The position numbers and the translations under genes were made by a program. Under the pieces are notes generated by a model. It was not told where the DNA came from and made no database searches. It worked only from the letters and a program-made list of their open reading frames with translations. Positions 349-27,777 of a stretch of 39,547 nucleotides of DNA are shown here, piece by piece (the first letter of the stretch is position 1; each line of letters starts with the position of its first letter). Source of the DNA: a virus; IMG/VR virus record IMGVR_UViG_3300033153_004576, positions 1 to 39,547 of that record; one strand, given 5' to 3'.

Positions 349-2010
349 TCATCCTACTTTCCTTATTCTTATTTGGGTATATATATTTTCTCCCCATGTT
401 TGGCTTGAGCCAAAACCAGTAGTTGATCTTGTACTTTTACATCTATGCCTAATTTCAAATACCTTCTCATCACTAATAGTAATTATACCATCTATAATAC
501 TAACATTTCCTACTGAACTACCATCAGATGCTTTCTGTACCGATCCTACTATTTCATTTGCTGAGTCAGTTATATTGTATAATAAAGAACTGTGTTCATC
601 TACTTGTAGTGCTGGTACAGTAGCATAAACCTCATACTCTCCTTCGGGTAAAGTAATTTGATTAGACGATAAAGAAGCACCTTCTATTTCATTATATTGC
701 TCTGTGTTTAAATCCCTTGTTCTCCATGCACTAGAGGTAAATGTTCCCCCGTCTACCCCTGAAGCCTTAGTGTCATTTATTACAAGAACTGCATTTGGCA
801 GGATAGGCATAATGTCTATTATGTTTTTCAATTCATAAAATTTCCCTGTAGCATCTACCACCATTACCTTTTCTGCATCTTCTACAACTAAAGAGGGAGG
901 GTAGGTATCATAAATGTTTCTATACCCTAATGTTTCTGTGTCGTCTGCATACCCACAAAGATATTGCATGATAACAGGTGTTTGGGTTTTAAAGGCGGTA
1001 GCTATAAGCCCTAATTCAAGCTGTATCTCTTCTTCTGCCAAGGGTACTTCTATTTCCCAATCCCCGGAAGCTGGTGAAGTCTTACCTATAGGAGTTTCAA
1101 GATCTTTATAGGATAGTATGTAGGCTGTATCTGCGACAAAAGTACCCTCTTCAAGAGTTTGCTTTATATTTGTGCCACTCTTTTGCCATCGATCATAACC
1201 CCATTCATCATCAAGAAGCCCTCCCCAATCACCGTCAAACTCTCTGTTGTTTATTACAAAGTCACCATTTAGGATAATGTTTACTTCTGCTGATCTTGCA
1301 GCATCAACATAGCCTTTATATACAAGATCTCTTTCGTCTTCCGGGGTGAACGCCTCTTCAAGTGGGATAGATCCGTCTTTTCTAAGGAACGATGTAAGTT
1401 CCGGCTCGTGGTTCTCTACAAATTCTTTTGTAGCAATGTCCTTGTCTTCCTCCGGTGTATAGTCTGAGTCCATTTGTACGGACCCGTCTGAATAGATAAC
1501 ACTCGAGTCAATAGTAACTGCTGCCCCGAATAATGTTACCTGATCATCAAGAGAGGCTGCTACAAGTAATCTTATAGTGTTGTCTGGTATTACGGTGTAA
1601 TCATCTGTTTCCGTAAGCAATAGCCCCTCATGGTAAACTAAAGTGTTTGAGTCTACGTCTCTTGTTGCCACAAAGTCTGTTTGTGCATACTCTGCTGTGA
1701 AGTCTTCCCTCCATGCTGAATAGTCGCCAAGTCCTACAGGTACAAAGTTCTCTACACTCCATATAACTTGATCGTCTGCATCTTTAAATACGATATCGTA
1801 CTCACCAGAGGCTAAAAAGATATCTGCCTTCCCTGTAGCGGTTAAGATAACAGGGTGTGTGTTCTCTATCTCTAAACCACTTTCTTTATAAGTGATTATT
1901 GGCGATCCTGTGAAAACATCCGTGAAGTAAAGTTTCCCGTATGGTACTACTAACCCCTCGTTGTCTATTCCTTGGAAGTGACCAAGTGTAAATTGTGCGC
2001 CTAATGACAT
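349..2010 (-). CDS. Tail fibre / receptor-binding protein
   Basis: This 553-aa protein is the last gene of the leftward late operon. Its first ~90 residues look like the N-terminal virion-binding domain of podovirus fibres and tailspikes (VPYGKLYFTDVFTG, SGEYDIVFKDADDQVIWSV). Two similar segments (DYTPEEDKDIATKEFV and AFTPEDERDLVYKGYVDAA) follow at about 183-240. From about residue 415 the protein matches the jelly-roll tip common in phage fibres (GGTFTSSAWRTRDLNTE, GASLSSNQITLPEGEYEVYA). That tip would contact the host surface. ATG at 2010 has AAGGAG six bases upstream. No enzymatic tailspike motif is evident. The domain assignments are by recognition, not by a search. Confidence 0.85.
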   Translation of the reverse strand: MSLGAQFTLGHFQGIDNEGLVVPYGKLYFTDVFTGSPIITYKESGLEIENTHPVILTATGKADIFLASGEYDIVFKDADDQVIWSVENFVPVGLGDYSAWREDFTAEYAQTDFVATRDVDSNTLVYHEGLLLTETDDYTVIPDNTIRLLVAASLDDQVTLFGAAVTIDSSVIYSDGSVQMDSDYTPEEDKDIATKEFVENHEPELTSFLRKDGSIPLEEAFTPEDERDLVYKGYVDAARSAEVNIILNGDFVINNREFDGDWGGLLDDEWGYDRWQKSGTNIKQTLEEGTFVADTAYILSYKDLETPIGKTSPASGDWEIEVPLAEEEIQLELGLIATAFKTQTPVIMQYLCGYADDTETLGYRNIYDTYPPSLVVEDAEKVMVVDATGKFYELKNIIDIMPILPNAVLVINDTKASGVDGGTFTSSAWRTRDLNTEQYNEIEGASLSSNQITLPEGEYEVYATVPALQVDEHSSLLYNITDSANEIVGSVQKASDGSSVGNVSIIDGIITISDEKVFEIRHRCKSTRSTTGFGSSQTWGENIYTQIRIRKVG

Positions 2011-2020
2011 CTGTTACTCC

Positions 2021-5000
2021 TTAATTATTTTTCTTGCGTTTATACGCATCTTCGCCGATCTTACGCCAACGCTTGATCTCCTCTAGGTTGTCTTTTCTGA
2101 TCTCATAATACTCTTTTGCGCTTATTTTTCCTTGCTTCATGTCTTTTCTGGCTTGGGAAACCTTGCGCTTAAATTTGAGTATTCTTTTCCCTGCATCAAG
2201 TTTGGCTTGTTTTGCTGCCCATTCTTTCCATGATGCAAGCTCTTTAGCTGTGTATACATAAGTGTTGATACCTACCCACCTTGGTAATTCTGGGTGCCTT
2301 GTCTCTTTTAAGCTGTATATTTTTGTAAGCGTTCCAGGGGCCAACTGTTTAGCGATATATTTTGCTGAGTCCTTGTATTTTTCAAGATCATCATGTTCAT
2401 AATATATTTCCTTCCCTGAGAAAGCATCACGGTTAGTAAGAAAACCTCCTATGATGTGGACTGGTGTTCCTGCAAGCCCAATATTTGAAGCACCCTTTAT
2501 AGGATCTCCTTTAGCCGTAGAATATAATGCAGATAATAATGATCCAAAAGGAACTACATAACTTATATCTGTAAAGGTTACATCGATATCTCGGCCTCTT
2601 TTCTCCATGTCCACTCTGATAAGTGGGTTATCTGCCATCCATTCCGGGATATCATTCATGATCTTGTCATATCTCTTATGCCCTATTTCGTCTCTATCAT
2701 CATCGGTAGCACCATTCACAAGCATTACAAGTGCAGCACTTATCATAGCAAGTGTTACAGGGCGGTTGATAATAGTATCATACACATAGGCTATTGTTTT
2801 ATGGGTGTAGGTAGGGAAGAGTGTTCCTATTAATTTTAACCAAGCTGCTTTGGTCATATCCGGATCTCTCATTCCTCGAATAAGGTCATAGGTTAAAGCA
2901 TAGTCATAGTGTGTATCTTGTGCCTTTTCTACTGCTTCCTCTTCGCTCATCCTTTCTATTTCCATAGCATATCTCATGCGCGCTATTTTTGCCACATCAT
3001 CAATAACACCGTATAAGTCTCCGATCTGCTCCATTTTCTTTAGTATCCATTTTTTAACTACGTGCTCATCAGATAGTTCTTCTGAGATACTTCGTAGCGC
3101 GTCATTAACCTCCATAGTGATCATGTTTGTATGAAGCACACCGCTTTCTACTGCCATTCTGTACCATCTATCTTGTTTTCTCATACTACGTGCTGCGGAA
3201 GCGTATCGAGTAAAGAACTGTGTAGGATCTGCCCCACTCATCCCCCATTGGAAGAAGTTTGATTGGAAGTTTCTTGGATATGCAAAGATATTCGCGGGTA
3301 CCTTAGCCCATTTAAAATAAACCAAAAACTTTTTACCTATGTTGTCTATCTTTTCTTTCATCATAACAGGGTTATTCACAACATTAAATTGAGACTTAAC
3401 CAAGCTTGCCGCGTCTGCTGTCATTTTAACCCCTGCGATAGCGCCATATCTTTTATCGTCTGGTATCTCTGCAAGTCCTTCAACACTATTTATGATCGCG
3501 TCTTTGGCTCCCTCTATCTGGTCCTCGATTTCTTCTTTTCTCTCAATAAGGAATGTGATCTCATCTGCGTCCATATTTTCATCAAGTCTATTGATCATAT
3601 CTTCGATGTATGGAAGTGCTGTTTTTTCTGCATAGATCGGGCTGAACATCATAGGAAGGTTAGCAACCCTGTCTGATAGTGCCACAAGCATATCTGTATC
3701 AATTATGTGTGATCTCTCTGTTATGCCCCTAAAGAACTCTTCTATACCTATATTCCCTTGTGTCTTAGCAATAGTCATTTTTATCATCATGCTTGGATCA
3801 AGAATAGCACCAAGTCTCTCTGCTTCTTCCGGGAACTCTTCTAAATAGTCGATAATGCTTTCTATCTTTCTATTCTTTTTGTTCTCATACATTTTAATGC
3901 CGCTTGATACTTTCGCAGCGATATCCGGCTTTTGGATAGATAGATACAATCTTGATAGATATCTCCCCTCCCATTTTGCATATTGGCTTGGTAGGATGAT
4001 CCCTTTCTCCATAGCCTCTAAGCTTATTCTGTCAATGTATTCTCTTACTATGTCAAGATGTTCTGCAAGCTCTGGGTACTCTTCTGATATCGCCTCTCTT
4101 GCTTCTGGGTTTTCTAAGTACCTAATAGATAGTGTGTTAAAAAGATCATCACTTAGCTGCCCTCTACTGTCCTCTATAAGTTGTGCTTTGTCTTTTGCGC
4201 TAACGTCTGCCTTTGCAAGTTTCGCCTGTAGTCTTCTAAAGTGTCTTACAAAGTCCGTCTCTTGCTCTCTGGTAAGACTTCCAAGACCTGCCATACTTGT
4301 CCCTCCATACTTTCGTAAGAAGGTGTCAAATTTTGTGCCTTTTATTTTGCCTGTTACATTTTGAAACACTATGTTATCAAGTTTGTTCTTGGCTGTGTTT
4401 ATGGCTCCTGTATATGTGAATGGACTGAGTAGATCAAGTGTTGCAAACCCTGGGCGCATAGGAGTAGTTACGTCTTCTGTGTCTGGGGCTTGATCTTCTT
4501 TTTTAACCTCTGCCTCTATATTGGATATTGCTTCTGCCTGTTCTGTTTTAGCTGCTTTGTATTCATCCCATTTACTGAATTCTTGTGAGAGTTGCTTGTT
4601 TACCCCTATAATGCTCTCTTTGGCTTCCTGTAGGTCTTCTTTTATCTTCTCTTGCACTACCTCGTATCTTTGAAGTTCATTTAATAATCTTGTACCAATA
4701 CCGGACGGCTTTTGCTTAAAGAAGTCTAGGATTAGTTTTCTCTCTACTTCACCATTTAAAAAGATAGTAGATATCCCCATATCTTGATCATGTGCTATTG
4801 ATATCTCTATATTCCCAACACTCCCGATCACTTTAGGTTTTAATCCTTTTGCTTGGACGTACTTATCAAGTATCTTGTAGATTGCTTCACCTAGTTCACC
4901 AGGCTTCTCAAATGTTTTCTTGTTGATCTTCACTTCATTGGTCTTGATCTGCTCTATATCTTTACTGTAGTTGTCTATCGTCTCCGGTAAAGTCTTTTCT

Positions 5001-8000
5001 TCAAACTCAAATTGCTGCAGCTTACTTCTTTGTACTGCTTGATTAGTCTCATATCCTCTTTTCATAGCTTCAAGCTTCTTCACCTTCTTATCTGCTTTGA
5101 TCTTATCAATCAAGAAAGGGTTTCCACTTGCTTCGGCCTTCATGCGTTCCGCTAGTTCACTATTACTTTCTTCTTCAATATCAACTTCACTTGCAACGCC
5201 ACTCATAAAGTCTTGTATAAACTTGGCCTTGTTCTCCAATATTTGCCATTTTACACCGTCAAGGGTTTTCTTTGTTGCATAATAAAAGATATCTATTTTA
5301 AAGTCTGGGTTAGCTGCTAGTATCGTGTTACCTTGTCTGATAATCCTACCATTACGCTGTTCAAGTTCTGCCGGAGTGTATGGGATATCGATATGATGTA
5401 CTGCTGTAAGCTTCTTTTGTACGTTCATCCCTGTGCCTAATTTCTTGGTACTCCCAAGTACGAAACGTATCTCCCCACTATTTACCTTCTCTGATAGTTC
5501 CGCTTTCTTTTGTTTTGTTCCATAGTCGTGTATAAATGCGATCTCTTTCGCTGGTACACCACCCTTGATAAGCTTACTTCTTATGTCCTCGTATATGCTG
5601 AACTTTGATCCTGTTAAGATATCTTGTATCTCTGCATCGGTCCATTCGTTTGCTAAAGTCTTTTGAGCTTCCGTATCTCCGCTTTCTGCACTTGTGATAA
5701 GTTCTTCAAGCTTTGCTTTTGCCTTGCCTCTGCCCTTTGGAGTTCCAATATCACTAAATATAAGTTGTGTTCCTCTTTCTTTAGCAAACTGCTTATGCTT
5801 CTTTAGTGCCTCGAAAACAACTGAATTAACTTTAGAGGTGCTTTCATCTGCGTATGTTGGGCTGATTAGGCGCATATCCATAGCCATCTTAACCGCATCA
5901 CCAAATATTGCTAAGTGGTTATCTGGGTTATCTTTCTGGCTTACTGTTGCAAGTCTATCAATCAAGGTCTTTGTAAAGTCAAGCTGTGATTTGCTCGGCT
6001 CAATGAAGATCGTCTTAGGTTTCCCGCCTTCAAGTTCTGGAAGTTTAAAGTTAGGATCAGATTTTTTGATATCTGCATTGGTTACTGTGTCAATGATCTG
6101 CCCGGCTGTCTCCATAAGCATAGGAATATTTTTAAAACTCTTCATTCTGGTAACTTCTTTAAAGCCGCCTGTCGGTGTCATTTCTATATCTGTTGTAGGA
6201 TCCGCGTAATTCTTCGCCCAAGCATCAAACTGGTTAAGCCCTTGTTCTGCTAGTGTGTCCTCCTGCAAGTATTTCTGAATTAGAAATAGTTCGGGTAGTG
6301 TATTGGTTATCGGGGTACCTGTCATAAACACTAAGTTATTGTTTTTCTTTAAGATCGCTTTTGTTTTAACGTATAGATCAAATGCTCTAAGGCTTCCATC
6401 TGTGCTTGGCATACCTTTTATACTTCCCATTGAAGTAGCGTAAGCAAGCTTCTTAAATTGGTGACTCTCATCTACGATCATGCCATCGATCCCCAACTTC
6501 TCAAAAGAAAGGATATCGGTATCTTTCGCACCTGTTGTTAATTTTTCATAACGCGCTTCAAGTTTCTCAATAGCCGTCTCTAAGTCTCTTACTGTGAACC
6601 GATCATCTTCTTCTTTAGCATCAAGTAAGGCTTCCTCTGCCTGTGCTATCTCATCCTCGATAAGCTGCTTCTGTAGCTCGTAAGGGTTTTGAAGTTTAGT
6701 AAGTTGTTCATGTGATAAAACAATAGCATCATAATCACCTGTAGCAATAGAAGATAAAAATCTCTTCCGGTTAGCTGTGTTAAAATCATTATCATTAGGT
6801 AGCAACACTTTAGCGTTAGGATATGCCTCTTTAAATTCTCTGGTAAACTGTTCTACTGTTGACTTAAGTGCTATTATCAAAGGTTTGTTTGCTTTGCCTA
6901 GTCTTCTCCACTCCATAGCGATCATTTGAGAGGTTAAGGTTTTCCCACTTCCTACGGTATGATTAAGAAGTAGAGGGCTATTCCCAAATACTGCGCGATA
7001 TACTGCTTTTGTCTGGTGCTGTCTAGGCTCAAAGAATTTTAGATTAGGGATCTTGTACTCTTCTGCCTTTCCTTCATGGTCCATCTGGTTGTATCTATTG
7101 TAAAGATCATTATATAAAGGTACTAGCTCGTTACGTCTACTCTCTTTAGAGAATATCCAGTTAGCAAAGTCTTCACGTAACTCTTCTACTTTTGCATTTG
7201 CTAAGGTTGTTGCTTCCTCATCTACATAGCTTCTCTTCACCCCTCCTACTGTCTCGCTTCTTCTTATGATGATCTTTTTATTATTGAGTGCGCTTGATAG
7301 TATCTCTGTATCACCCGCCCCACCACTAAAAGGAAAATCGTAAGAGTGATTACTTGTAGGTACACTCCACTTGCTTGTAACTCTGTTGTATCCAAGCTTA
7401 GGATATCTGAACCCTAGTTTCTCTTTCATGTATTGTTCATGTATTTGTGGGCTGATCCATGACGCGCCTATGTCTGCGGTGATCTCATGCGCCTCTTTAT
7501 CAATAGGGATTACTTTTAAAAGTTCTTTCCTAGCGTCTTCATCGATAGTCTCTTCTAGTTTTGTTTTAACATCACCAGATAAGAATACGTCTTTAGTAAC
7601 ATATCCCTGCTTATTGTCTTTGAAGATCTTACCTTTAAGGTCTTTTATAACAATCTCTTTAGTCTTCCCTGTGACTTCTATAATATACGGGATATCTACA
7701 ATACCTTTTCTATAGACTGATAAAAGTAGGGCTTCGCTTGTGTTCTCTGTTTTAACTTCTGTAAGAGGTTTTATTGTTCTCTTGGTGAGGATATCCGCCT
7801 TTTCTCCGCTTTCTTCTTGTGGTGCAGTATCTCTTTGCTTTGCCTGTTTGTCTGATATTTTCCTTTGATAGTTCTCTTCAAGGCCTAATACTGTGTAGCC
7901 GCTTTTGTCTTGTACTACTATATTTCTATTCGCGGTGTTGTTTAGATATCCGTGTCTTCTAAAGAAATGATTATACGCTGCGTTAAGCGCTGTTCTGTTC

Positions 8001-11000
8001 TTTTCTAACTCTTTTTCTGTGATAGAGGTGTCGAGTTGCATATCTATGACTTTATTCGTAAGATCCCTTACTTTGATAAAGTCCATCACTCTCTCTCTTT
8101 TACCTTTGATAAGCTGCGGTTCTAATGCTTCACCTGTCTTGATGTTCACATAGTATTCACCGTCTTTTTCATAAATAACACTTGCTGGCATAGTATCGTC
8201 TGCACCACTTATGTCGGCCTGTTTCGTGATATTGTCGGCTTTATTCATAATAGAAGCGGGTAACTTCGCTTTTACTTGTGCTATCTTGGTGCTGATATCT
8301 CCATCGGTTGCTATAAGTTCACCACCTCGATACCCTTTGCGCCATTCTCCAAGCAGCATATCCGGGTTGTTGATAAAGTATTTGTTGATCTTTGCCTCAT
8401 TGAGTAGGCCTGTCTCCCCCCACTCTTCAAGGTTTCCTTTTTCTCCGTCTTGTAGTTTCTGGAATATAACGATATCTGTAGTTACTTTTGTTCCTGCACT
8501 CGCAAACACATTATTAGGTAAACGTATGGCGCCTATAAGCTTCGCTCTCTTATTGATCTCAAACTTTGCCTTATTGGTCATGCTGTCCAGGAAAGAAGAG
8601 GTGATAACAAAGTTTAGGATCCCCCCATCTTTTAGGCTGTCAATAGACTTCGCTACAAAATAATCATGTATTGTAAGGCCGCTTAGTGCTTTGTTGTTCT
8701 TGTCCACGATCTTTATTTGTTTGGCATAAGGCGGGTTCCCCAATATAAGTTCATGTACGTCTTTATATTCTGTTTCCTGAAAACCTTTATTTCTACCATT
8801 GACTTTATAAAGCGCTGTTGCGATCTTGTATGTTGTAGGATCAAGCTCTACCCCATTAAATGCTGTATTTGATTTGAATTTGTCTGGTGTAAGTCCTATA
8901 AATCTGCCTGTACCCATAGAAGGTTCTAGGACCATACCACCATTAAAGCCTAAGTGTTCAGAAATATCCCACATAGCTTTCACGGTTTCTATTGGAGTAT
9001 AGTACGCATCAAGTACACCACTTCTTGCTTCTTTGTACTCTTCTGGCGTTAGGGATTGTCTTAGTTTTGTAGCTCTCTCTTCCCACCCCTTAGCATAGCC
9101 GCCCTTTGGCTGCTCAAAGGCTTTTTGAAGTCCTCCCCACCCTGTATATCGGGATAGAGTTTTTTTCTCTTCTAGTGTGTATCTAGACTTATTCTCTTTT
9201 AGTAGCCTGATTGCCTTAGTATTGTCATTGTATCTTGATATCTCACCACTTGCTACGGCCTCGAGTTGTTCAAGGATGAAAGGGTTATCTTCTACGCTTC
9301 CACTATATGATGTGAGATCACTATCTCTTTGGCTTCTGCTATCTGCTGCTTGCTTGGGGTGTCCTGCGGTAGTAGTGTCTTCAACTCGTCCATCATCAAG
9401 TCTACTGTAGGCTTCACCTTCGCTAGTTTCGGAAACTGTATCTCCACCATCTCGGAGAATTGGTTTCTTAGGTTGTTCTCCTCTTTTGCGTTCATATTCA
9501 TCTTGTGATCCTTTCTCTTCCCCTATTGTAGCATCTTTTATATGGGTGAGTGTGTTTACTTTTACGTCTCTTCTCATCCCACCTTCAAGTTCTATTGTTA
9601 TATGCCCCACTTTCCCGCTTGCGTCTCCAATAACAAGAACCTCTTGATAGCCTTCTCTTTTAAGGTCTTTCTTATAGCCTATTTTCTTTTGAGTTGCTGC
9701 GTAATCATCTACTATCTTGTCTGCTTCAAGTTGTGGAGATAATATTTCATCAACTATTATAGGTGTAGGCTTATCTTTAAACTCTTCAAGCCTCTTGGTC
9801 CTACGCTCTATCGCTTCCCATAGTGCCGGAGTAGGGCTTTTCTTGTGAGTTTCAAGAAGGTTTGATATGGTTGTAGCTTCACGATCATACTCTGCTTGAT
9901 CCTTGACAGGTCTACTTGCAAGCTCTTTGGCTTCTTTTATCCAAGATAGAGTTTCATCTTTTTTAGGCGCTGCATCCTCTTTAGCCTCTGGTACTGTGTC
10001 GGGTACTTGTTCCGTCTCTTTCGTCTCTGTTTGCTTAGCTTGTAAATCTTCTAACCTCCATTCTTCATCTTGTGTGAGTTCGCCTTCTGGCTTCTCTTCT
10101 AGTTGTGATAACTCATATTGCTCTGACTCGTTAAGCCCCTCTGGTTCGACTGTTGCTGGTTCTTCTATTTCGCTTAACTCGTTTTCAAAGATTTGAGTTT
10201 GCTCATCGGTCGCTTCAAGGTCTTCTTTGCTCATACCTGCGTATGTCTGTTCTTCTGTAGGTAGGACCTTCTTCTTGTCTGGTACTTTCATATAAGCGTT
10301 TATCTTGTCTTCGTCACCATCTGGGAATAGTTTTTCTGCAAGTTCTCTTTTCTCTCCTGCTCTTTCCCTGGCTGCCTTTTGTTGTGAGCTGACTTTTGGG
10401 ATAAATTGTTTTTTGCTCTCTTCTTCAAAGAAGTCACCTACCTCTTCAAGTGCTACGGCTTCTTCGGCTTTCTGCTTTTTCTCTTCTTGCACGATCTCTG
10501 CATAGGTAGGTTCTTTTTCCCCTAATGCTTCCTCTGCTCCTGCTTCTAAGTTCTCGTACTCTTTTAGTATTCTTTCTTGTAGGTCGATATCCTCCATGAC
10601 TTCCGTAGGGAAGGTAACATCCCCATTATCTTTAACAAGTGCGGAAAAGCTCTGCTGTATTCCCGTGATCCTTTGCTCTTCTGCCTGGTATTCTTCTCTT
10701 TGCTCTGGCGTAAGACTGTCAAATACCATATTTTCAAGACCGGCTTTAATCTTCTGTTGCTCTTCGTTTAGTGAAGTAAAGTTCATTCCAGATAGTTGCG
10801 CTTTAAGCTTTTGCTGATCTGGTGTTAATGAAGTGAAGGTGAAAGATAAAGCTCTTTTTCTTAGTGCCTGTGATCTTACGGCTGCCTGCTTGTTCTCTGT
10901 GTAGCCTTGGTATAGTTCTGCCCCTGTTGCTGTTGCTGTGGCCATTCCTCCACCCATTACACCGCCTGCTAGTGCTGCAAACGCTCCACGCTTGAACATT

Positions 11001-11929
11001 TCCCCTGGATCTAGTTCTTTATCGGTTCCTATCGCTTCACCTGTGGCCTCGATAAGTCCTTCCTGTACCGCTTCGGTTCCTGCTTCTTTTACTGTTGCTG
11101 CGCCTACTGCCTTAAGGACTGTTTCGGTTCCTGCTTTCCATCCCTTCTCAATGATATCTTTTCCGATATTGTTTACAACGTCGGAAGTCATAGCCTTAAG
11201 CCCTAACCTATCAAGCCATACGCTTCCAAGGACGAAAGGCGCTGCTATTGCCATATCTTCCAGGTCGCCTTCTTTTCTCCCGCTATTCTTTGCTCTGTCG
11301 TCGGCCATTTCTTTAGTTCTTGAAAAAATGTATAAAGGCAGTTGTGTAACCATCGCGCCCATATCTGGGATTGATTTGATACCCTGCTCATATCCATAAA
11401 GTAAACCCTCTTGAATTGTGTCTATGTCAAGTAGCCCGCCTTTTTCAAATGCTTCCGTGATCCCCTCTTCTGTGTGGGTAGGCTTGTAGCCCATTGTACC
11501 CTTTGCCCACTCTGCAGCCTTCTTAAACATTTTAGTATTGCCTGTACCAAATTGCTTCTGTGAATAATCGACGATCGACTGTGCGCCTTCGAGAGTATTA
11601 ACTACAAGCTCGTTACCTCTTTCGACTAGCCCTTTTGCTACATTATAGCTTGGTGCTTCTGGGTTTTCGTAGTCTTCACCTTCACCAAATGCGATCTTGC
11701 TAACTGTCAAGCGATCATCAAGGCCTTGCGCTTCCGCCATTTTTGCGGTTCTCTCTCTGGCAGCGTCTCTATGTTCTTGATCGCTTATAGCTCTCTCTTC
11801 TGCTGTAGGCTCTGTATCTATTGTAAGAGAGTCCTCAAAGCTCAAACCTGCTTCAAAGTCATTCTTTGGCTCGCTGTCTTCTATTGTTAAACTATCTTCA
11901 AAATTTAAACTCTCTTCAAACTTAGACAC
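2021..11929 (-). CDS. Giant polyvalent protein: DNA methyltransferase-like plus SNF2-type helicase, DarB-like
   Basis: A single 3302-codon frame with a GTG start, preceded by AAAGGAT. Visible order: FEDSL repeats (2-40); a Gly/Ala-rich hydrophobic stretch (about 310-335); three ~19-aa repeats (about 360-425); a long acidic, charged region (430-760); YTGWGGL, then adenine-methyltransferase motif I (EPSMGTGRF, ~1000) and NPPY (~1064). A superfamily 2 helicase follows: GSGKT (~1660), DESH (~1818), TGTPITN (~1870), RNGRIIRQG (~2195). A helical C-terminal region with hydrophobic patches ends in a Lys-rich tail. Methyltransferase-helicase giants of this kind are known as phage polyvalent proteins, including P1 DarB, which is packaged and protects incoming DNA from restriction. 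Its place beside the ejection proteins suggests co-injection. Enzyme activity is inferred. Confidence 0.85.
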   Translation of the reverse strand: MSKFEESLNFEDSLTIEDSEPKNDFEAGLSFEDSLTIDTEPTAEERAISDQEHRDAARERTAKMAEAQGLDDRLTVSKIAFGEGEDYENPEAPSYNVAKGLVERGNELVVNTLEGAQSIVDYSQKQFGTGNTKMFKKAAEWAKGTMGYKPTHTEEGITEAFEKGGLLDIDTIQEGLLYGYEQGIKSIPDMGAMVTQLPLYIFSRTKEMADDRAKNSGRKEGDLEDMAIAAPFVLGSVWLDRLGLKAMTSDVVNNIGKDIIEKGWKAGTETVLKAVGAATVKEAGTEAVQEGLIEATGEAIGTDKELDPGEMFKRGAFAALAGGVMGGGMATATATGAELYQGYTENKQAAVRSQALRKRALSFTFTSLTPDQQKLKAQLSGMNFTSLNEEQQKIKAGLENMVFDSLTPEQREEYQAEEQRITGIQQSFSALVKDNGDVTFPTEVMEDIDLQERILKEYENLEAGAEEALGEKEPTYAEIVQEEKKQKAEEAVALEEVGDFFEEESKKQFIPKVSSQQKAARERAGEKRELAEKLFPDGDEDKINAYMKVPDKKKVLPTEEQTYAGMSKEDLEATDEQTQIFENELSEIEEPATVEPEGLNESEQYELSQLEEKPEGELTQDEEWRLEDLQAKQTETKETEQVPDTVPEAKEDAAPKKDETLSWIKEAKELASRPVKDQAEYDREATTISNLLETHKKSPTPALWEAIERRTKRLEEFKDKPTPIIVDEILSPQLEADKIVDDYAATQKKIGYKKDLKREGYQEVLVIGDASGKVGHITIELEGGMRRDVKVNTLTHIKDATIGEEKGSQDEYERKRGEQPKKPILRDGGDTVSETSEGEAYSRLDDGRVEDTTTAGHPKQAADSRSQRDSDLTSYSGSVEDNPFILEQLEAVASGEISRYNDNTKAIRLLKENKSRYTLEEKKTLSRYTGWGGLQKAFEQPKGGYAKGWEERATKLRQSLTPEEYKEARSGVLDAYYTPIETVKAMWDISEHLGFNGGMVLEPSMGTGRFIGLTPDKFKSNTAFNGVELDPTTYKIATALYKVNGRNKGFQETEYKDVHELILGNPPYAKQIKIVDKNNKALSGLTIHDYFVAKSIDSLKDGGILNFVITSSFLDSMTNKAKFEINKRAKLIGAIRLPNNVFASAGTKVTTDIVIFQKLQDGEKGNLEEWGETGLLNEAKINKYFINNPDMLLGEWRKGYRGGELIATDGDISTKIAQVKAKLPASIMNKADNITKQADISGADDTMPASVIYEKDGEYYVNIKTGEALEPQLIKGKRERVMDFIKVRDLTNKVIDMQLDTSITEKELEKNRTALNAAYNHFFRRHGYLNNTANRNIVVQDKSGYTVLGLEENYQRKISDKQAKQRDTAPQEESGEKADILTKRTIKPLTEVKTENTSEALLLSVYRKGIVDIPYIIEVTGKTKEIVIKDLKGKIFKDNKQGYVTKDVFLSGDVKTKLEETIDEDARKELLKVIPIDKEAHEITADIGASWISPQIHEQYMKEKLGFRYPKLGYNRVTSKWSVPTSNHSYDFPFSGGAGDTEILSSALNNKKIIIRRSETVGGVKRSYVDEEATTLANAKVEELREDFANWIFSKESRRNELVPLYNDLYNRYNQMDHEGKAEEYKIPNLKFFEPRQHQTKAVYRAVFGNSPLLLNHTVGSGKTLTSQMIAMEWRRLGKANKPLIIALKSTVEQFTREFKEAYPNAKVLLPNDNDFNTANRKRFLSSIATGDYDAIVLSHEQLTKLQNPYELQKQLIEDEIAQAEEALLDAKEEDDRFTVRDLETAIEKLEARYEKLTTGAKDTDILSFEKLGIDGMIVDESHQFKKLAYATSMGSIKGMPSTDGSLRAFDLYVKTKAILKKNNNLVFMTGTPITNTLPELFLIQKYLQEDTLAEQGLNQFDAWAKNYADPTTDIEMTPTGGFKEVTRMKSFKNIPMLMETAGQIIDTVTNADIKKSDPNFKLPELEGGKPKTIFIEPSKSQLDFTKTLIDRLATVSQKDNPDNHLAIFGDAVKMAMDMRLISPTYADESTSKVNSVVFEALKKHKQFAKERGTQLIFSDIGTPKGRGKAKAKLEELITSAESGDTEAQKTLANEWTDAEIQDILTGSKFSIYEDIRSKLIKGGVPAKEIAFIHDYGTKQKKAELSEKVNSGEIRFVLGSTKKLGTGMNVQKKLTAVHHIDIPYTPAELEQRNGRIIRQGNTILAANPDFKIDIFYYATKKTLDGVKWQILENKAKFIQDFMSGVASEVDIEEESNSELAERMKAEASGNPFLIDKIKADKKVKKLEAMKRGYETNQAVQRSKLQQFEFEEKTLPETIDNYSKDIEQIKTNEVKINKKTFEKPGELGEAIYKILDKYVQAKGLKPKVIGSVGNIEISIAHDQDMGISTIFLNGEVERKLILDFFKQKPSGIGTRLLNELQRYEVVQEKIKEDLQEAKESIIGVNKQLSQEFSKWDEYKAAKTEQAEAISNIEAEVKKEDQAPDTEDVTTPMRPGFATLDLLSPFTYTGAINTAKNKLDNIVFQNVTGKIKGTKFDTFLRKYGGTSMAGLGSLTREQETDFVRHFRRLQAKLAKADVSAKDKAQLIEDSRGQLSDDLFNTLSIRYLENPEAREAISEEYPELAEHLDIVREYIDRISLEAMEKGIILPSQYAKWEGRYLSRLYLSIQKPDIAAKVSSGIKMYENKKNRKIESIIDYLEEFPEEAERLGAILDPSMMIKMTIAKTQGNIGIEEFFRGITERSHIIDTDMLVALSDRVANLPMMFSPIYAEKTALPYIEDMINRLDENMDADEITFLIERKEEIEDQIEGAKDAIINSVEGLAEIPDDKRYGAIAGVKMTADAASLVKSQFNVVNNPVMMKEKIDNIGKKFLVYFKWAKVPANIFAYPRNFQSNFFQWGMSGADPTQFFTRYASAARSMRKQDRWYRMAVESGVLHTNMITMEVNDALRSISEELSDEHVVKKWILKKMEQIGDLYGVIDDVAKIARMRYAMEIERMSEEEAVEKAQDTHYDYALTYDLIRGMRDPDMTKAAWLKLIGTLFPTYTHKTIAYVYDTIINRPVTLAMISAALVMLVNGATDDDRDEIGHKRYDKIMNDIPEWMADNPLIRVDMEKRGRDIDVTFTDISYVVPFGSLLSALYSTAKGDPIKGASNIGLAGTPVHIIGGFLTNRDAFSGKEIYYEHDDLEKYKDSAKYIAKQLAPGTLTKIYSLKETRHPELPRWVGINTYVYTAKELASWKEWAAKQAKLDAGKRILKFKRKVSQARKDMKQGKISAKEYYEIRKDNLEEIKRWRKIGEDAYKRKKNN
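9292..9501 (-). CDS. Candidate overprinted small gene inside the giant gene (69 aa)
   Basis: This frame lies on the same strand as the giant gene, in a different frame, over residues ~810-880. ATG at 9501 has AAAGGA seven bases upstream, a better ribosome site than many accepted genes here. The product is balanced and helix-like (VEIQFPKLAKVKPTVDLM, DTPSKQQIAEAKEIVISHH). The giant frame over the same bases is unusually rich in Gly, Ser, Asp and Arg, as if it were the overprinted partner. It may be a real internal gene, or a relic of a frameshift that joined two genes. No family recognised. Confidence 0.35.
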   Translation of the reverse strand: MNMNAKEENNLRNQFSEMVEIQFPKLAKVKPTVDLMMDELKTLLPQDTPSKQQIAEAKEIVISHHIVEA

Positions 11930-11940
11930 AATTATCCTTT

Positions 11941-13146
11941 CTATTTATCTTCTACCCATTGGCCATTCTTAACGATCACTTTTGTACCGTCACTTGTTGT
12001 TGCTTTAGTTCCGTTTTTATGTTTAGCGCTGGCCTTTTGTGGCTTAAATGTGGTTGCTTTTGCTTGCTTTTTAGCCGGCTTATCATCCTCTCCCCCAAAG
12101 AAGTTTTTAATCTTTTGGCTTATTGTCTTCTCGTCCCCTGCAAGATCCATATCAGCATCTTCCATTTCCTTGATAACTTCCTTGATGATCCCGTCTTCAT
12201 TTTGTTTCATCCCGCTTTTCTTCCATCGTTTAACAACTTCTTCTTTGATCTTTAGTGCCATTTCTGGATTGTCAATATCTTTAAAGTAGTGATTAACCTT
12301 CTTGGATATAGCATTAACTTTCGCTGTTTGTTGCGGATATGTAGGCTGATTGACTCCACCTGGTGTTTCCGCTTTGAGTTCTGCCTCTGTCTTCTTCATG
12401 TAGTCTTTCATCGTTTTAGCACTCTTGATGAGTTTTGAACTTGAAGCGATTGTCATAGCCGTCCATTGTGGATCATAGTCTTCTGGGATCTTTGTCATAG
12501 CTTCTTGCATGAGCTTAGGATCTTTAATACTCTTGATCTTCTCATTTCTGTACTTGGACCATGTGGCTTGTTGCTGCATTGGATCTTTCATTGTACTTAT
12601 CGTGTGAAGCTTTGCTCCGTCTGCAGATACTTGTTTGGTGATAGCGTCCACTTGTTGTGTGGTTTTAGCGTCTGAGATATGCTTAAGCACTTTTGTATAG
12701 TCTTTTGTTTTAATCTTCGCATACGCCTTTACTTGATCATCTGGCATATCTGGGTTTTCTGCCTTGATTATCGTTTGCATGAAAGTTTCTGCTTCTTCGG
12801 ATGATTTAGCAGTTAAATTCGCCTTATAGTTTGCCGTCTCTCTTTGCTTATTGTGAGAGAAAGAAATTCTTGATAGAGCGTTTCTATGAGTACGTGTTTG
12901 ATTCTCTACTTTTTCTTTTCTGCCTCTCTCGTGCCTAAACTCTTCCGGGTTGAGTGCTTCACTTTCAATGTCTGCTTCTAGCATATTAGGGTATTGTTTT
13001 CTGAGTCTTCGCTTCCTGTTCTCGATCCCTGCCTCGTCTGATTTGCCTTCTCTTTCCATCTTCCCACGCTTTAGCTTGTTTATAGCTATATCGTCTTTTG
13101 CTTTTAGTATATTATCAAGTCTAATGCCGTATTGATTTGCTATCAT
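11941..13146 (-). CDS. Probable internal virion / ejection protein
   Basis: 401 aa, highly charged and mostly predicted helical, with no signal peptide or membrane segment. It starts at an ATG with AAGGGG six bases upstream. Lys/Arg/Glu-rich stretches at 20-110 and a basic C-terminus (KPAKKQAKATTFKPQ, near residue 355) suggest nucleic-acid contact. It sits between the gp7-like protein and the giant polyvalent protein, the position of P22 ejection genes 7-20-16. No recognisable family motif was seen, so the role rests on position and composition. Confidence 0.55.
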   Translation of the reverse strand: MIANQYGIRLDNILKAKDDIAINKLKRGKMEREGKSDEAGIENRKRRLRKQYPNMLEADIESEALNPEEFRHERGRKEKVENQTRTHRNALSRISFSHNKQRETANYKANLTAKSSEEAETFMQTIIKAENPDMPDDQVKAYAKIKTKDYTKVLKHISDAKTTQQVDAITKQVSADGAKLHTISTMKDPMQQQATWSKYRNEKIKSIKDPKLMQEAMTKIPEDYDPQWTAMTIASSSKLIKSAKTMKDYMKKTEAELKAETPGGVNQPTYPQQTAKVNAISKKVNHYFKDIDNPEMALKIKEEVVKRWKKSGMKQNEDGIIKEVIKEMEDADMDLAGDEKTISQKIKNFFGGEDDKPAKKQAKATTFKPQKASAKHKNGTKATTSDGTKVIVKNGQWVEDK

Positions 13147-13159
13147 AATTATCCCCTTG

Positions 13160-13861
13160 TTACATTAATAAGTAGTTACCAATACCCTGATTGATAGCTG
13201 TTGCTGCACCTGTGTAGGCTCCGGCTGTTGCTTCTCCTGCTGCAAGATAAGCATTTGAAGCAGATCGCCCCGCTGCCATTGTATTCGCGCTTGAAGTTGC
13301 TGCCATGTTTGTGCCTGCTGCTCCAACTCCTGCGGCGGCTGCTTGTCCTTGACCAGATAAAAACTGGTCTTGTTGTGTATTGGTGTTGTATGTGCCAAGT
13401 TCCCTGCCATATCGGTTACTCTCTTCACTTTGCCATCTATTAAATGCGTTAGAATATTCTTGTGAGGCCATATCTCCTGCATATCCGGCTATTGCTTTAC
13501 CTTGTGCGCCACTTTGAGTTCTACCTCTCGAGGCTGCACTTTGATCTAATGCGTCAATACCTTCTTGAAGTCGGAATTGATATCCTGGATCTGCCATAAA
13601 TTCAAACTCTTGTGCGTTAAATTTGAAGTCTGGTTGATCTTCAAGCCTTTTTATTGCGTTTTCCCCTGCTACCATCCAAGGCATCATATCCTCTCTGCCC
13701 TGCTCGTACATTTCCTTAGTGAGTGCGTTTGACTCTCTTGATGTTGTAAGTGTTGCGTCTGCGGATTGTCCTGCTGCGTCTATTTGTGCTTCCCCTGCTA
13801 AATAAGCGCCTCCTACTCCGATTACTGCTGATCCTATCACCGCTGTTGCTATAAAACTCAT
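13160..13861 (-). CDS. gp7-like DNA ejection (transfer) protein
   Basis: 233 aa with an N-terminal glycine/alanine-rich hydrophobic segment (residues 4-24). It then has a motif common in podovirus DNA-transfer proteins (DPGYQFRLQEGIDALDQSAA, followed by SRGRTQSG and NRWQ). The C-terminal third is Ala/Gly/Ser-rich. P22 gp7 and relatives are carried in the capsid and injected to help DNA cross the envelope. ATG at 13861 overlaps the upstream TGA (ATGA), so translation is probably coupled. The family call is by recognition of the repeat-like core. Confidence 0.65.
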   Translation of the reverse strand: MSFIATAVIGSAVIGVGGAYLAGEAQIDAAGQSADATLTTSRESNALTKEMYEQGREDMMPWMVAGENAIKRLEDQPDFKFNAQEFEFMADPGYQFRLQEGIDALDQSAASRGRTQSGAQGKAIAGYAGDMASQEYSNAFNRWQSEESNRYGRELGTYNTNTQQDQFLSGQGQAAAAGVGAAGTNMAATSSANTMAAGRSASNAYLAAGEATAGAYTGAATAINQGIGNYLLM

Positions 13862-14277
13862 GATAACTCCTTTTTTCTTTTTTCATGCTCGATATACACT
13901 TCACTCTTTTCGATAAGCATATCTTCTAACTTTTGAATGTCTGTCTCTTCTGTGTTGAACACATTTATGAATACAACATCCTCTAAGCATATTGCTATTT
14001 TCTGTGTGCCTGGATCAGTATGAAAAGTGAAAGGTGCAGTTATCTCTTTGCCTTCATCCTCTAAAGATCTTTTTAAAAGCATTTTCCCTTGTGCAAGTAT
14101 GTTTAAGCATGATCTCTTGTGCTTGTGGCCTAGAAGTAATACGCCTTTTGGTGCTCTGATCTCTCTCGCATAGATACCAGGAGAGAAAGAGTGAATAACT
14201 GGGATAGATACTTGCTCCTCTTCCAACATAAGCTTTTCAAGGCCTGATATGCTTTTTACTTCTATATCTTTAGACAC
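13858..14277 (-). CDS. Cupin-like phage protein
   Basis: 139 aa. Its core (YAREIRAPKGVLLLGHKHKR, NILAQGKMLLKR, TFHTDPGTQKIAICLEDVVF, INVF) has the alternating strands and Gly turns of a small cupin-type barrel. Similar proteins occur beside neck and ejection genes in other podoviruses, with no role known to me. The start is GTG with AGGA five bases upstream. The initiation region is almost identical to that of the giant gene. The C-terminus is a charged helix that overlaps the next gene by four bases. Confidence 0.5.
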   Translation of the reverse strand: MSKDIEVKSISGLEKLMLEEEQVSIPVIHSFSPGIYAREIRAPKGVLLLGHKHKRSCLNILAQGKMLLKRSLEDEGKEITAPFTFHTDPGTQKIAICLEDVVFINVFNTEETDIQKLEDMLIEKSEVYIEHEKRKKELS

Positions 14278-14304
14278 AATGATCCTTTCGCATAGTATAT
14301 CATG

Positions 14305-14448
14305 TTATGGAGTCAATACTACTATTTGGGCTTCTGCTGCTGCCAATCTCTTTTCAAGATCTACAAGGTATCTTACTATTGCTTGTGTGGGCCTACCTTC
14401 TTTATCTACTATCTGTGAGTGTATTGGTAGTGGTGTTTTGGTGGCCAT
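14305..14448 (-). CDS. Small conserved-type structural accessory protein (47 aa)
   Basis: ATG at 14448 has AAGGAG eight bases upstream, and the frame ends in TAA at 14305. The protein (MATKTPLPIHSQIVDKEGRP, then TQAIVRYLVDLEKRLAAAEA) ends in an amphipathic helix likely to form a coiled coil. Short proteins of this shape often lie next to neck and tail genes in phages. It starts inside the stop region of the gp10-like gene. Function unknown. Confidence 0.55.
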   Translation of the reverse strand: MATKTPLPIHSQIVDKEGRPTQAIVRYLVDLEKRLAAAEAQIVVLTP

Positions 14449-14449
14449 A

Positions 14450-15835
14450 CTATGATCTCCTTATGTGAAGTGATAATATCTTAAATGGAACTGGTGAAGA
14501 GGACGAGAACTTGGCTACAATGTTTCTATGTTGTCCTAATCTTCTCCATTTAACCCTAGATCTGCTTTCACCTGTTGCGCCTGTCTTTGAAAAGTTCTTA
14601 CTGCTCCATGATCTGCCCGCATCATTAGATATCTGTAGTGCTATTTCTGCCTCTTCATTAAGGGCTACTTCCATATCCAATTCTAGTTCACTTATGCGTA
14701 CTCTGTTTACTGTGTCGTTTAGAGGTAAAGAAACAATCTCTCTTAAAATGTTTTTATCATCTTCTTGGTAGAGATCTTCTGAGACTAGATAAAGATAGTT
14801 AGTTGAATACCCATAGTTAAGGCCATCCGCATAATTATTGTAGATACCTTCCATCTTCCATCTTCCTATATCATCACTCTTTCTTGTATGCCATAACGAT
14901 GTTTGCATATCATAAACATAGGTATGATCTCCTCCAAGGGTAAGAGCATAGAACCATCTTCCCCTTTCATGGAAAGAAAAGGCCTTCATATTTTCAGAAC
15001 ACGCCTTGCAAGTCTCTGATATTTGAAACTCTATCGCTTGTGAGCTGATAGGTATAAGAGAGTACCCATTTGTTCTATATACTTTTAGATCATTCCCTAT
15101 GAAGACAATCGTATCAAGTGCCTTAGATACAGTTCTGTAATTAATGCACCCTACGTCTATTACTGCCCCTGGTATTCTTGTGAAAGGGAATAAAGGATCT
15201 CCGCTGTCATACCATACCTCAGAGGTGTGTTCCCCAATGATCCATAATTGCCTGTTTGCTACAGCTACCGCTAAAGTATCATCTGGCGCAGCTTCACCAG
15301 TCGCCCAATCGATAGCGTCAAGCTCTGTGCTGAATAGTTTAGAAATAAAGAATTGTCCTGTTTCGTTCCGGTTAAAGATGAAATATCCATCAAGATAGCC
15401 TACTGTGTTAGAAGGGTACCATCCTGACTCATCCTCCATGTTTTTAAGCGTGTCTGTTGTTGGGTTATATGCGTACCCTCCCCCTGAAACAAAAACCATT
15501 TCGGTGCCATTGTCTGCGAAAGATACTTTATCTTCAAGCTCAACATTCCCCACCGTCTCTATGGTGAATTCTGACATTACACCTGTAGGCACTACTCGGT
15601 ACAGTTTACTCTTTGTTACTGCATACAGTACGTTTTTGAACGAATAGAACCCTAGTATCGGATAGTCAAATACTGCTATCCTCTCCGATCCTGGTGTATG
15701 AAGCAGAAGAGACTTTGATTTGCTTCCTGCATCTTCTAAGTGAATGTATAGATTAATGAGTTCAGAAGCGTTACTCTTCTTTGATCTCCCGGAAGAGGAT
15801 GATATCACCAAGGGAATGTTTGTAAGATTTGGCAT
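14450..15835 (-). CDS. gp10-like packaged-DNA stabilisation / tail hub protein
   Basis: 461 aa, close to the ~472 aa of P22 gp10. The N-terminus (ASELINLYIHLEDAGSKSKS, LLHTPGSERI) and the repeated WIIGEHTSEVWYDSG / GAVIDVGCINYRTV style match the phage stabilisation protein family. In P22 this protein forms the tail hub below gp4 and closes the portal channel after packaging. It starts at ATG 15835 with AAGGGG five bases upstream, one base after the gp4-like gene ends. Gene order gp4-gp10 is as in P22. Confidence 0.85.
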   Translation of the reverse strand: MPNLTNIPLVISSSSGRSKKSNASELINLYIHLEDAGSKSKSLLLHTPGSERIAVFDYPILGFYSFKNVLYAVTKSKLYRVVPTGVMSEFTIETVGNVELEDKVSFADNGTEMVFVSGGGYAYNPTTDTLKNMEDESGWYPSNTVGYLDGYFIFNRNETGQFFISKLFSTELDAIDWATGEAAPDDTLAVAVANRQLWIIGEHTSEVWYDSGDPLFPFTRIPGAVIDVGCINYRTVSKALDTIVFIGNDLKVYRTNGYSLIPISSQAIEFQISETCKACSENMKAFSFHERGRWFYALTLGGDHTYVYDMQTSLWHTRKSDDIGRWKMEGIYNNYADGLNYGYSTNYLYLVSEDLYQEDDKNILREIVSLPLNDTVNRVRISELELDMEVALNEEAEIALQISNDAGRSWSSKNFSKTGATGESRSRVKWRRLGQHRNIVAKFSSSSPVPFKILSLHIRRS

Positions 15836-15836
15836 T

Positions 15837-16541
15837 TTATCCCCTTGCTCTATTTCTTCGTGATCCTGATCTTTTAAATGCGCGTCCTCTACTTAGTGTT
15901 GAAGGCTTATAGCTGTACGTCTTTACGTTGTCCTCTGCTTCTAATGCTTTACCTAATAGCATTTGTGAAGGCACCACTTCATAAGTAGGGCATAACTCGA
16001 GAGCAAGCCTTCCTAAAAGCATCTTTTCTACACCAAAGCTGAATACTATATCATCAGTCGCTTTGAATTTAGCTCCGCTATTTATTGGCATCTTACACAT
16101 AAGGTGAAGTGTTAGATCATCTTGTGGGATCACATCAAAGTATATATTTAGTCCGTTTTCATCTATAGCATGGCGATAGTATCTTGACGGTATTGACTTT
16201 ACACTTTTAACCGCTATCTTGGACCATGTGTTACCTGCCATCATGGTAAGTGGGTAATCAGTCTCATCTTGCCGGAAGAAGGCATTATCAACAAAAGAAG
16301 GTGCAACACCATCAAACTGTAGCCCTGCGCCTATTGTGATAGGAGAGGTCCACTCTGTGTCTGGCATTTCATACTCTATGTCTTGAAGGTATGAAGTGAT
16401 TAGGTTTTGAGTGTTGTATAGATCAATGATCCTGTTAAGCGTTCTTAGTGCGAAAGCGTGATCTTCTGGCGCAGCTTCATCTATTGCGGATAAAACACCT
16501 ATTTCTATAAGTGCATCATTTATAAGGGTAGATATTATCAT
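15837..16541 (-). CDS. gp4-like tail accessory factor / head-completion protein
   Basis: 234 aa, longer than P22 gp4 (166 aa). Start region ISTLINDALIEIGVLSA, then RTLNRIIDLYNTQN, are typical of the P22 tail-accessory family. The C-terminus is Arg/Ser-rich (RGRAFKRSGSRRNRARG). It should dock under the portal ring and bind the gp10-like hub encoded next. The start has GGAGG with a five-base spacer. P22 gp4 also has peptidoglycan hydrolase activity; no such catalytic motif is obvious here. Confidence 0.8.
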   Translation of the reverse strand: MIISTLINDALIEIGVLSAIDEAAPEDHAFALRTLNRIIDLYNTQNLITSYLQDIEYEMPDTEWTSPITIGAGLQFDGVAPSFVDNAFFRQDETDYPLTMMAGNTWSKIAVKSVKSIPSRYYRHAIDENGLNIYFDVIPQDDLTLHLMCKMPINSGAKFKATDDIVFSFGVEKMLLGRLALELCPTYEVVPSQMLLGKALEAEDNVKTYSYKPSTLSRGRAFKRSGSRRNRARG

Positions 16542-16587
16542 GTTGACCTCCTGTTATCTTCTCATTGTAGCGAAATATGTAGTAATA

Positions 16588-17377: not shown

Positions 17378-17387
17378 TTTTTATCCT

Positions 17388-25102: not shown

Positions 25103-25669
25103 TTATTCTTCTGATACTACCCCTAATGCTGAAAGGTAATTTAAAGCTTCGTCTCCTGTCACGCCTTTTATGCGTCTTATAATATGATTATTTGTTAGGT
25201 TTTGTTTTTTTGTGCTATCAAATAGACTTACAATATAACGCTTTGTTTCGTCACTATCAAAAGTTAAATTAACTAATAGTATTTCTTCCATGTGCTCATG
25301 ACTATAAGTTGACTCAAGATCTACCCTTAATACCAAAGATGCCTTCTTTACAGGTTCACTTGTCTCTTCTCCTGCAAATAATCTCTGCTTCAATAGATAC
25401 CCTTCAAGCATCCAAATCTTTTGCTTGGCGTTCTCTCTGGCTATCTTCTGCCCTAATGCTTCATCAAAATTCTCTAAAGAAACAGAAGAGGACTCTCCTG
25501 TAACCTTAAACCCATTTTTTAAAATAAGCATACATACCGTCATTGAAGTACCAGGGAATACATGATAATACTCTTCTTCAATAGTGTCCTCTATCATCTG
25601 AGGGTTAAGCCTTGGTGCATTGAGTCCTTTTGCTTGGATCATCTTCTCTGTTTCTTCATCGTTTTTCAT
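25103..25669 (-). CDS. gp49-family phage protein
   Basis: 188 aa. Residues 10-100 carry the family signature: IQAKGLNAPRLNPQMIEDTI, YYHVFPGTSMTVCMLILKNG, FKVTGESSSVSLENFDEALG, ENAKQKIWMLEGYLLKQRLF. This family is widespread in phages, with no established function known to me. The C-terminal ~80 residues (LRVDLESTYSHEHMEEILLV onward) look like an extra domain not usual for the family. ATG overlaps the portal stop (ATGA), with AAGGA eight bases upstream. It ends six bases from the converging cassette. Confidence 0.75.
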   Translation of the reverse strand: MKNDEETEKMIQAKGLNAPRLNPQMIEDTIEEEYYHVFPGTSMTVCMLILKNGFKVTGESSSVSLENFDEALGQKIARENAKQKIWMLEGYLLKQRLFAGEETSEPVKKASLVLRVDLESTYSHEHMEEILLVNLTFDSDETKRYIVSLFDSTKKQNLTNNHIIRRIKGVTGDEALNYLSALGVVSEE

Positions 25670-27777
25670 TTTTCCGTTCCTTTATTCTTGTGTAAATTGG
25701 CTGCTATATCCTTAGCAAGCTGATCTTTTCTCGTTTCTTCTCTATCTTTTTGCCCCTCTTCTCCTTCTCTGATTTTATTCCCTGCTTCTATCTTGGCTTT
25801 ATCAAGGTTGATCTGTGCAGTTTGCATCTTGATACGCTCCAACTCTACCTTCGACTCGAGCTCAAACCTTTTAAGGTCTGTTTCTACTTTTAACTTCTCT
25901 TGCTCTGCTTGTGCTTTGACTTGTTCTGCACTTGGTTGAGGCTCCGGCATACCATCCTCTTTAAGCTTCTCTTGCTTCTCTTTGCTTAGTAGGTGCATTG
26001 GTATTGTCTTGGAAAGTCTCTCGGCCAATACATCACTATCACTAAAGTCAAGGTTTTTAACAAGAAGGTCAACTCCTACTTCTGCAACTTTAGGGCTTTT
26101 CCCCATAAGATCAAGGATCTGCTGCGCGTTCTCGTCCTGTTTAGTCTCATAGCTTGCCCCTGAGCTTATCACTACGGTATGTGATCCACCTTCTATAGAG
26201 TTCAAAAGCTTATCTTCGCCGGTTTGGTTGTCATTCTCTATCTTGTTGAGTTCGATAGTCTCTGTAGTGTTATCGATCTTACGAATTTGAATAATACGTT
26301 CTGTATCATATATCTTTGGGATCAGTTCGGTAATCAATATTCCTGTTCTTCTGATTGCATTTTGGTAGTTGTCTATAAATTCGTATGTTCCGGTATCTGC
26401 TTCACCTGCTCTTGCCTTTATTGCTTTACCGCTTATCTCATTGCTTGCTTTACCTACTGAGGCATCCTGCATACCTATAGAGTCTTTCATGTCTACATCA
26501 AGCACTCCTGCTGCCTGTAGCTCTGCAACTGGCATAGTCGCCCCTTGATCTCTATAGGGTTTGTCTTCCCCTTTTTTGTACGTGAGTGTAGAAAATCTGA
26601 TAGAGTTTGCATTTGCCCATTGTTCTTCGTAGCCTTCAATGGCCTTATCTGTTGTGATCCATGGTGCAATAGGTGAGTTGTCTATCCTCTCAACGGCTGA
26701 CGATCTCATAAGGTTAAGCGCTCTTTGTGCGTCTCTTGCATCATAGATAAGCCCTTTTGTGGCTCTTTTACCTCTAAGGTCCGTCTCTCTACCAATCATT
26801 GGAATAATTGGAATAGTAGAAGTAGGGAACTCGATTTCTTCTTCTAGTATATCACCTTGTGATATCTTGCACCATATTACTTTGTGGCTTGGTACTTTTC
26901 TAGTCTTGACAACTGTTATACCCTTCTCTTCGAGTTTCTGCGCTACCTCTACATCTTTTATGTCCTTTGAGTCCACCACTTCGCCAGTAGAAAGTAATGA
27001 TATTTCTTTTGTGGTAGGTTCTCTTCTAAAGTATTCCGATATGGTGACTGTCTTATCGTCTCCCCAAAAAGTAGTTGGTGTTTGATCTGTTCCAGGTAAT
27101 GCCTCTTTACTCTTCCCTGGGTAACGTTTATTGAACTCGTCCTCTGTGATCTTCTCTGAGATAATAGCCCAGTTCATATCGCTCTTGTCTGACTCTACCG
27201 CGTCGGGATCGATAATAACACTCCATCTATCCCTAATCGCTTTGATCTCAATATCAAGGTCAAATCCATCATCTTGGTACTTAGTAAGAACTCTTATCCA
27301 TCCAAAACCACCTTCTACTGCGTGCTTAAATGCTGTCTTGTACTCTGCTACTGCGTTTGATTGGTATTCTATGTCTCTGATTAGGTCCGTAAGTACTTCT
27401 GACAGTTTAAGCTTCTTTCCTCCTGTAGTTATGAGTTCCGGCTCTGATATCCCTATTGAGCTTCCAGAAGGTGAAACGTTTATAGTCTGAACAGAAGATC
27501 GCTGTTTCCCTATAACCCTATTGACAAACTGAGGCAGCTTATTGAATGTGAGTGCTAACCTGTTATCATCTTCCATATCGTTTAGTTCTTCTTGTCCGTA
27601 TTGCTCTCCAAAGATAAAGTGAACGTCCTCTTCTGCCCGGTCCATGTTCCCTTTGTGTGCCTCATATCCTAGTGTGGCCCTCTCTACTGCCTCCTTAATG
27701 ATATCATTCTTTGAATTGCCTTCTCTAACCTGTACCGGTTCTTTTGCTATTCCTGTTCCTGCTGCGTTCTTTTTCAT
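25666..27777 (-). CDS. Portal protein, P22 gp1-like
   Basis: 703 aa, near P22 portal (725 aa). Typical features are AEEDVHFIFGEQY and NRLALTFNKLPQFVNRVIGK near the N-terminus, then SPIAPWITTDKAIEGYEEQW and KASNEISGKAIKARAGEADT. The last ~120 residues form a long charged helix (AEQVKAQAEQEKLKVETDLK, onward), the barrel of P22-type portals that reaches into the capsid. The dodecameric portal is the DNA gate. ATG overlaps the TerL stop with GGAGG upstream. Confidence 0.9.
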   Translation of the reverse strand: MKKNAAGTGIAKEPVQVREGNSKNDIIKEAVERATLGYEAHKGNMDRAEEDVHFIFGEQYGQEELNDMEDDNRLALTFNKLPQFVNRVIGKQRSSVQTINVSPSGSSIGISEPELITTGGKKLKLSEVLTDLIRDIEYQSNAVAEYKTAFKHAVEGGFGWIRVLTKYQDDGFDLDIEIKAIRDRWSVIIDPDAVESDKSDMNWAIISEKITEDEFNKRYPGKSKEALPGTDQTPTTFWGDDKTVTISEYFRREPTTKEISLLSTGEVVDSKDIKDVEVAQKLEEKGITVVKTRKVPSHKVIWCKISQGDILEEEIEFPTSTIPIIPMIGRETDLRGKRATKGLIYDARDAQRALNLMRSSAVERIDNSPIAPWITTDKAIEGYEEQWANANSIRFSTLTYKKGEDKPYRDQGATMPVAELQAAGVLDVDMKDSIGMQDASVGKASNEISGKAIKARAGEADTGTYEFIDNYQNAIRRTGILITELIPKIYDTERIIQIRKIDNTTETIELNKIENDNQTGEDKLLNSIEGGSHTVVISSGASYETKQDENAQQILDLMGKSPKVAEVGVDLLVKNLDFSDSDVLAERLSKTIPMHLLSKEKQEKLKEDGMPEPQPSAEQVKAQAEQEKLKVETDLKRFELESKVELERIKMQTAQINLDKAKIEAGNKIREGEEGQKDREETRKDQLAKDIAANLHKNKGTEK

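Follow-up and report, generated by a model that had tools for sequence, protein, structure and literature searches.

What kind of protein fills 25% of a small P22-like genome, and what might it do there? The question is raised by an IMG/VR virus record of 39,547 bases (hereafter the window, meaning the whole stretch analysed), in which one minus-strand gene (2021..11929) encodes a giant of 3302 aa and about 372 kDa. Judged by its sequence, the giant is a DarB-like polyvalent protein, a divergent example of a kind already known, short-tailed phages included.

Gene structure and enzymatic core

The giant gene is a single 3302-codon frame with no internal stop, exactly where an earlier note on this DNA had placed one open frame; that note gave no strand, which we find to be the minus strand, as for all window coordinates below. 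In 20 shuffles of the window the longest open frame reached 204 codons, so that a chance origin of the frame is excluded, and the intact frame together with the shuffles likewise rules out a split gene or a frameshift. A Shine-Dalgarno sequence, AAAGGA, recognised by eye, lies ahead of the GTG start (11935..11940). Within residues 1-40 (11810-11929) a short repeat, LNFEDSLTIED ... LSFEDSLTIDT, is seen by eye only; it might contribute to a capsid-targeting signal.

Residues 627-2506 match phrog_10089, annotated 'DarB-like antirestriction', with E=0. The giant matches 114 phage records, the best at 34% over about 1700 aa, and its residues ~880-2490 are 33-38% identical to phage giants; with that identity at best, it adds a divergent example to the giant injected antirestriction proteins. 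An IMG/VR search with the whole giant as one sequence found no relative, and a search with the family alignment found 268. The LPD36-methyltransferase-SNF2 order is that of the 'DNA methylase-helicase dyad' of polyvalent proteins, whose archetype is P1 DarB (PMC5512222).

The LPD36-type GxGG motif, as defined in PMC5512222, is found as YTGWGG at residues 928-933 (9131..9148), N-terminal to the methyltransferase, and GxG[GAS] is present in all 168 relatives having a residue at that site. The methyltransferase domain itself, of the gamma class of N6-adenine enzymes with TP and NPP(Y/F), spans approximately residues 970-1300 (8030..9022) and was assigned through a Pfam match of Eco57I type and the TaqI family in the PDB. 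It contains a motif X-like YYTPIETV (8981..9004), motif I, LEPSMGTG (8906..8929), and motif IV, ILGNPPY (8726..8746), with NPPY at residues 1065-1068. C-terminal to it in the same chain lies an SF2/SNF2-type helicase or translocase (approximately residues 1633-2300; 5030..7033), matched in Pfam by ResIII, SNF2-rel_dom and Helicase_C; the PDB chains matched by the giant's family profile are those of TaqI and SNF2. The SF2/SNF2 set is complete at residues 1657-2201, with Walker A (HTVGSGKT, 6938..6961), DESH (in motif II, MIVDESHQFK, 6452..6481), TGTP, motif V and QRNGRIIRQG; motif VI, ELEQRNGRIIRQGN, lies at 5327..5368.

Both the NPPY methyltransferase and the complete helicase motifs read from the DNA in the earlier note are thus located and intact. 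Mutated catalytic motifs in relatives, which that note held would speak against its reading, were looked for and are absent: of the about 170 relatives compared, only two lack NPPF or NVPF at motif IV, the Walker A sequence reads G-x-GK[TS], and helicase motifs III and VI are retained with conservative changes.

The methyltransferase-SNF2 core is also common in Firmicutes genomes (L094-L173, genome contigs), and half of the relatives fetched have NVPF instead of NPPF at the catalytic motif. Two public phage records carry giants that their annotation misses or divides. In Pseudomonas phage Itty13 (L003, NC_070969.1) a 4112-codon frame at 6865-19200 on the plus strand matches the DarB-like core and is unannotated, and three large minus-strand CDSs annotated opposite it look spurious. 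In Sinorhizobium phage PBC5 (L010, NC_003324.1) the annotation splits the DarB-like giant at 2060-17808 into two genes separated by a gap; the homologous match begins before the second gene, possibly owing to a frameshift or an error in sequencing.

The ejection-protein slot

The minus strand of the window carries a P22-like structural module in the order terS, terL, portal, scaffold, coat ... Ad3-like, Hc3, with P22-type portal, coat, scaffold, Hc3 and DNA ejection genes in sequence. Hc3 is followed by a tail adhesin-like gene, the DNA ejection gene, a gene for a 401-aa protein, the giant gene and a tail fibre gene. The portal protein (25666..27777) has its closest relatives in VvAW1, BA3, Shewanella phage X14 and Vibrio podoviruses. 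Beyond it lie the Ad3-like head-tail adaptor (15837..16541), the P22 gp10-like head closure Hc3 (14450..15835), the DNA ejection protein in the slot of P22 gp7 (phrog_598; 13160..13861), the 401-aa protein (11941..13146) and, directly downstream of the giant, the tail fibre protein in the slot of the P22 tailspike (349..2010).

Because the P22 genes run 10, 26, 14, 7, 20, 16, with the tailspike further on, we assign the giant to the gp16 slot and the 401-aa protein to that of gp20. The equivalence of the giant with gp16 is positional only: single-sequence profile alignment detected no homology to P22 gp7, gp20 or gp16, gp16-family homology included, and the gp7 link of the ejection protein runs through phrog_598 only. 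For the 401-aa protein no relative was detected in 50,697 phage records, whereas its neighbours have some.

The order ejection protein, middle protein, giant and tail fibre recurs in BA3, X14, D478 and several IMG/VR contigs, and VvAW1 shares it only up to the giant. VvAW1 is a Vibrio phage and P22-like podovirus of 38.7 kb, similar in genome size to the window, and its genes between head closure and giant are arranged in the same order; its DarB-like gp1 (3640 aa) has a core 34% identical to ours over about 1800 aa. It differs in that its C-terminus is confirmed LPD38, its N-terminal module has strongly diverged, and its gp2 is not detectably related to the window's 401-aa protein. The earlier note took the giant for a DarB-like component of a P22-like virion, encoded at the end of the ejection cluster, and this accords with these data: the core falls in the DarB-like PHROG, the synteny with VvAW1 and with IMG/VR contigs is exact, and the gene ends the cluster and adjoins virion genes.

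The giants of Bcep22-like podoviruses (JC1 gp69, 4515 aa; Pavtok gp27, 5007 aa; SopranoGao gp06) have the same LPD36-methyltransferase-SNF2 core but are longer, include a lytic transglycosylase in their N-terminal portion and belong to genomes of about 60 kb. P1 DarB (2255 aa) likewise combines a methyltransferase with an SNF2 motor; its identity to the giant is patchy, at 22-26%, it has NVPF where the giant has NPPY, and we found no terminal modules common to the two.

Terminal regions and proposed exchange of the enzymatic middle

The N-terminal module (residues 83-480; 10490..11683) is common to the giants of the P22-like marine podoviruses BA3, X14 and D478, with 43-48% identity over 160-210 aa, and a similar module occurs in L014, L016, L033 and L034. 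It matches just 16 of 50,697 phage records, all from Vibrio, Thalassomonas or Shewanella phages, and shows no similarity to the N-termini of Bcep22-like giants, save a marginal stretch in POI1126. AlphaFold models of the N-terminal region (mean pLDDT 45) and of the C-terminal region (mean pLDDT 38) were too poor for fold searches.

In BA3, in Shewanella phage X14 and in Vibrio phage D478 the same slot holds giants of 2631-2741 aa (L174:1851-9746 (-), L175:1-8223 and L176:12394-20619, respectively) that share this N-terminal module but have a different central methyltransferase, no SNF2 helicase and an LPD38 C-terminus. The VvAW1 giant combines the core of the window's giant with an LPD38 end and a weakly similar N-terminal module. 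Since these combinations differ, ends and middle assort independently in one slot, and the BA3, X14 and D478 giants compared with that of the window give the appearance of cargo exchange at a single genomic position. We therefore propose, tentatively, that the gp16 slot of P22-like podoviruses may hold a modular giant with constant ends for packaging and ejection and an exchangeable enzymatic middle. The terminal regions would then act as delivery modules. Being shared by giants with different enzymes, the N-terminal module is a candidate protein-injection signal and, if the proposal is true, a transferable delivery signal for chains of over 300 kDa.

The C-terminal region (residues 2500-3302; 2024..4432) is a remote relative of the C-termini of a second group of giants, the L083 family. 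The earlier note had pointed to this region as one in which domains should be sought; no usable direct domain emerged, but the L083-family relation did. Queried directly with the C-terminal 800 residues, Pfam, PHROG, tblastn (phage) and IMG/VR gave nothing usable, and a match to an Alt-like ADP-ribosyltransferase (E=0.005) was judged a chance helical match. The giant's C-terminus matches the L083 giant and its IMG/VR relatives by BLAST with E=6e-4, and it scores 62 against the L083-family profile, where the best of 60 shuffles scores 32. The L083 family in turn matches LPD38-containing C-termini with a profile probability of 94% one way and 62% the other way. By this two-step profile link the region is possibly LPD38-like. 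The giant's own C-terminus had no direct match to the LPD38 family profile, nor to the LPD38 Pfam model (PF18857) at E<=10, and for this reason we do not claim LPD38 membership.

Probable packaging and injection, and competing explanations

The giant is probably a packaged virion protein that is injected before restriction by the host sets in, a reading that is well supported by homology, as its relative in JC1 is virion-borne, N4 ejects a 3500-aa polymerase and the VvAW1 gene order is equal. Mass spectrometry of CsCl-purified virions identified JC1 gp69, from a Burkholderia podovirus, by 51 unique peptides (PMC9144972). In P1, DarB belongs to the head and protects DNA in cis (PMC5512222, PMC9024508), and its N-terminal 30 residues suffice for capsid targeting (PMC9024508). 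Presence in the virion is thus known only for the relatives in JC1 and P1, and protection in cis only for that in P1.

The earlier note considered a chain of this size unusual in a podovirus, an opinion that does not survive comparison with giants already described. Podovirus giants of 4515-5007 aa with the same core are known, and one of them, Pavtok gp27, has been discussed in a P22 ejection-protein paper as a putative ejection protein, which would have to be at least partly unfolded for its passage (PMC8402733). The N4 virion RNA polymerase, of 3500 aa and present in about 4 copies, is likewise a giant packed in and ejected from a podovirus with its enzyme in mid-chain (PMC12633501), although it is an RNA polymerase and not an antirestriction protein.

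We consider it likely that the DarB-like giant is packaged in a P22-like head, ejected, and protects incoming DNA in cis. Synthesised late, like the virion proteins, it would enter the head of the short-tailed phage and later be ejected together with the DNA or before it, probably in a partly unfolded state, to refold in the cytoplasm; packaging or ejection in the gp16 slot would be served by the N-terminal module and perhaps also by the C-terminal region. In the new cell the SNF2-type motor would travel along the incoming duplex, and either the N6-adenine methyltransferase would modify that DNA or the complex would sterically block restriction enzymes, giving cis protection during the first minutes. 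We infer injection, methylation, protection and the role of the terminal modules in two ways: the first steps, from synthesis to ejection, from homologues, and the last steps from the published DarB model together with the intact motifs. Against this explanation stand the facts that the phage is uncultured, that the similarity to P1 DarB is weak and patchy, and that the terminal regions are poorly modelled. The P1 system needs the partners DarA, Ddr and Hdf; by annotation only, none of them is found among the genes examined.

The main rival explanation is that the giant is chiefly an ejection or genome-translocation machine equivalent to P22 gp16, its helicase pulling DNA in and methylation being secondary. 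The gp16 slot fits such a role, as does the sharing of N- or C-terminal modules by giants in that slot whatever their enzyme. Similarity to the sequence of P22 gp16 is absent, however, the giants that BA3, X14 and D478 carry in this slot lack an SNF2 module, so that a motor is not needed there, and SNF2-type motors are widely coupled to adenine methyltransferases (PMC5512222); we regard this explanation as unlikely.

Cis protection after injection also has to be weighed against two accounts that dispense with injection. A giant that remained where it was made and worked late in infection, for instance by methylating progeny DNA before packaging, would suit a gene in a late structural operon, and methyltransferase function is independent of injection; yet its relatives in JC1 and P1 are virion-borne and the gene sits in the ejection cluster, which makes such a role improbable. 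Least probable is a structural or tape-like protein whose enzyme domains are catalytically dead fossils; only the size of the giant and its position in the cluster speak for this, whereas every methyltransferase and helicase signature is intact both in the window's giant and in its relatives of 33-38% identity.
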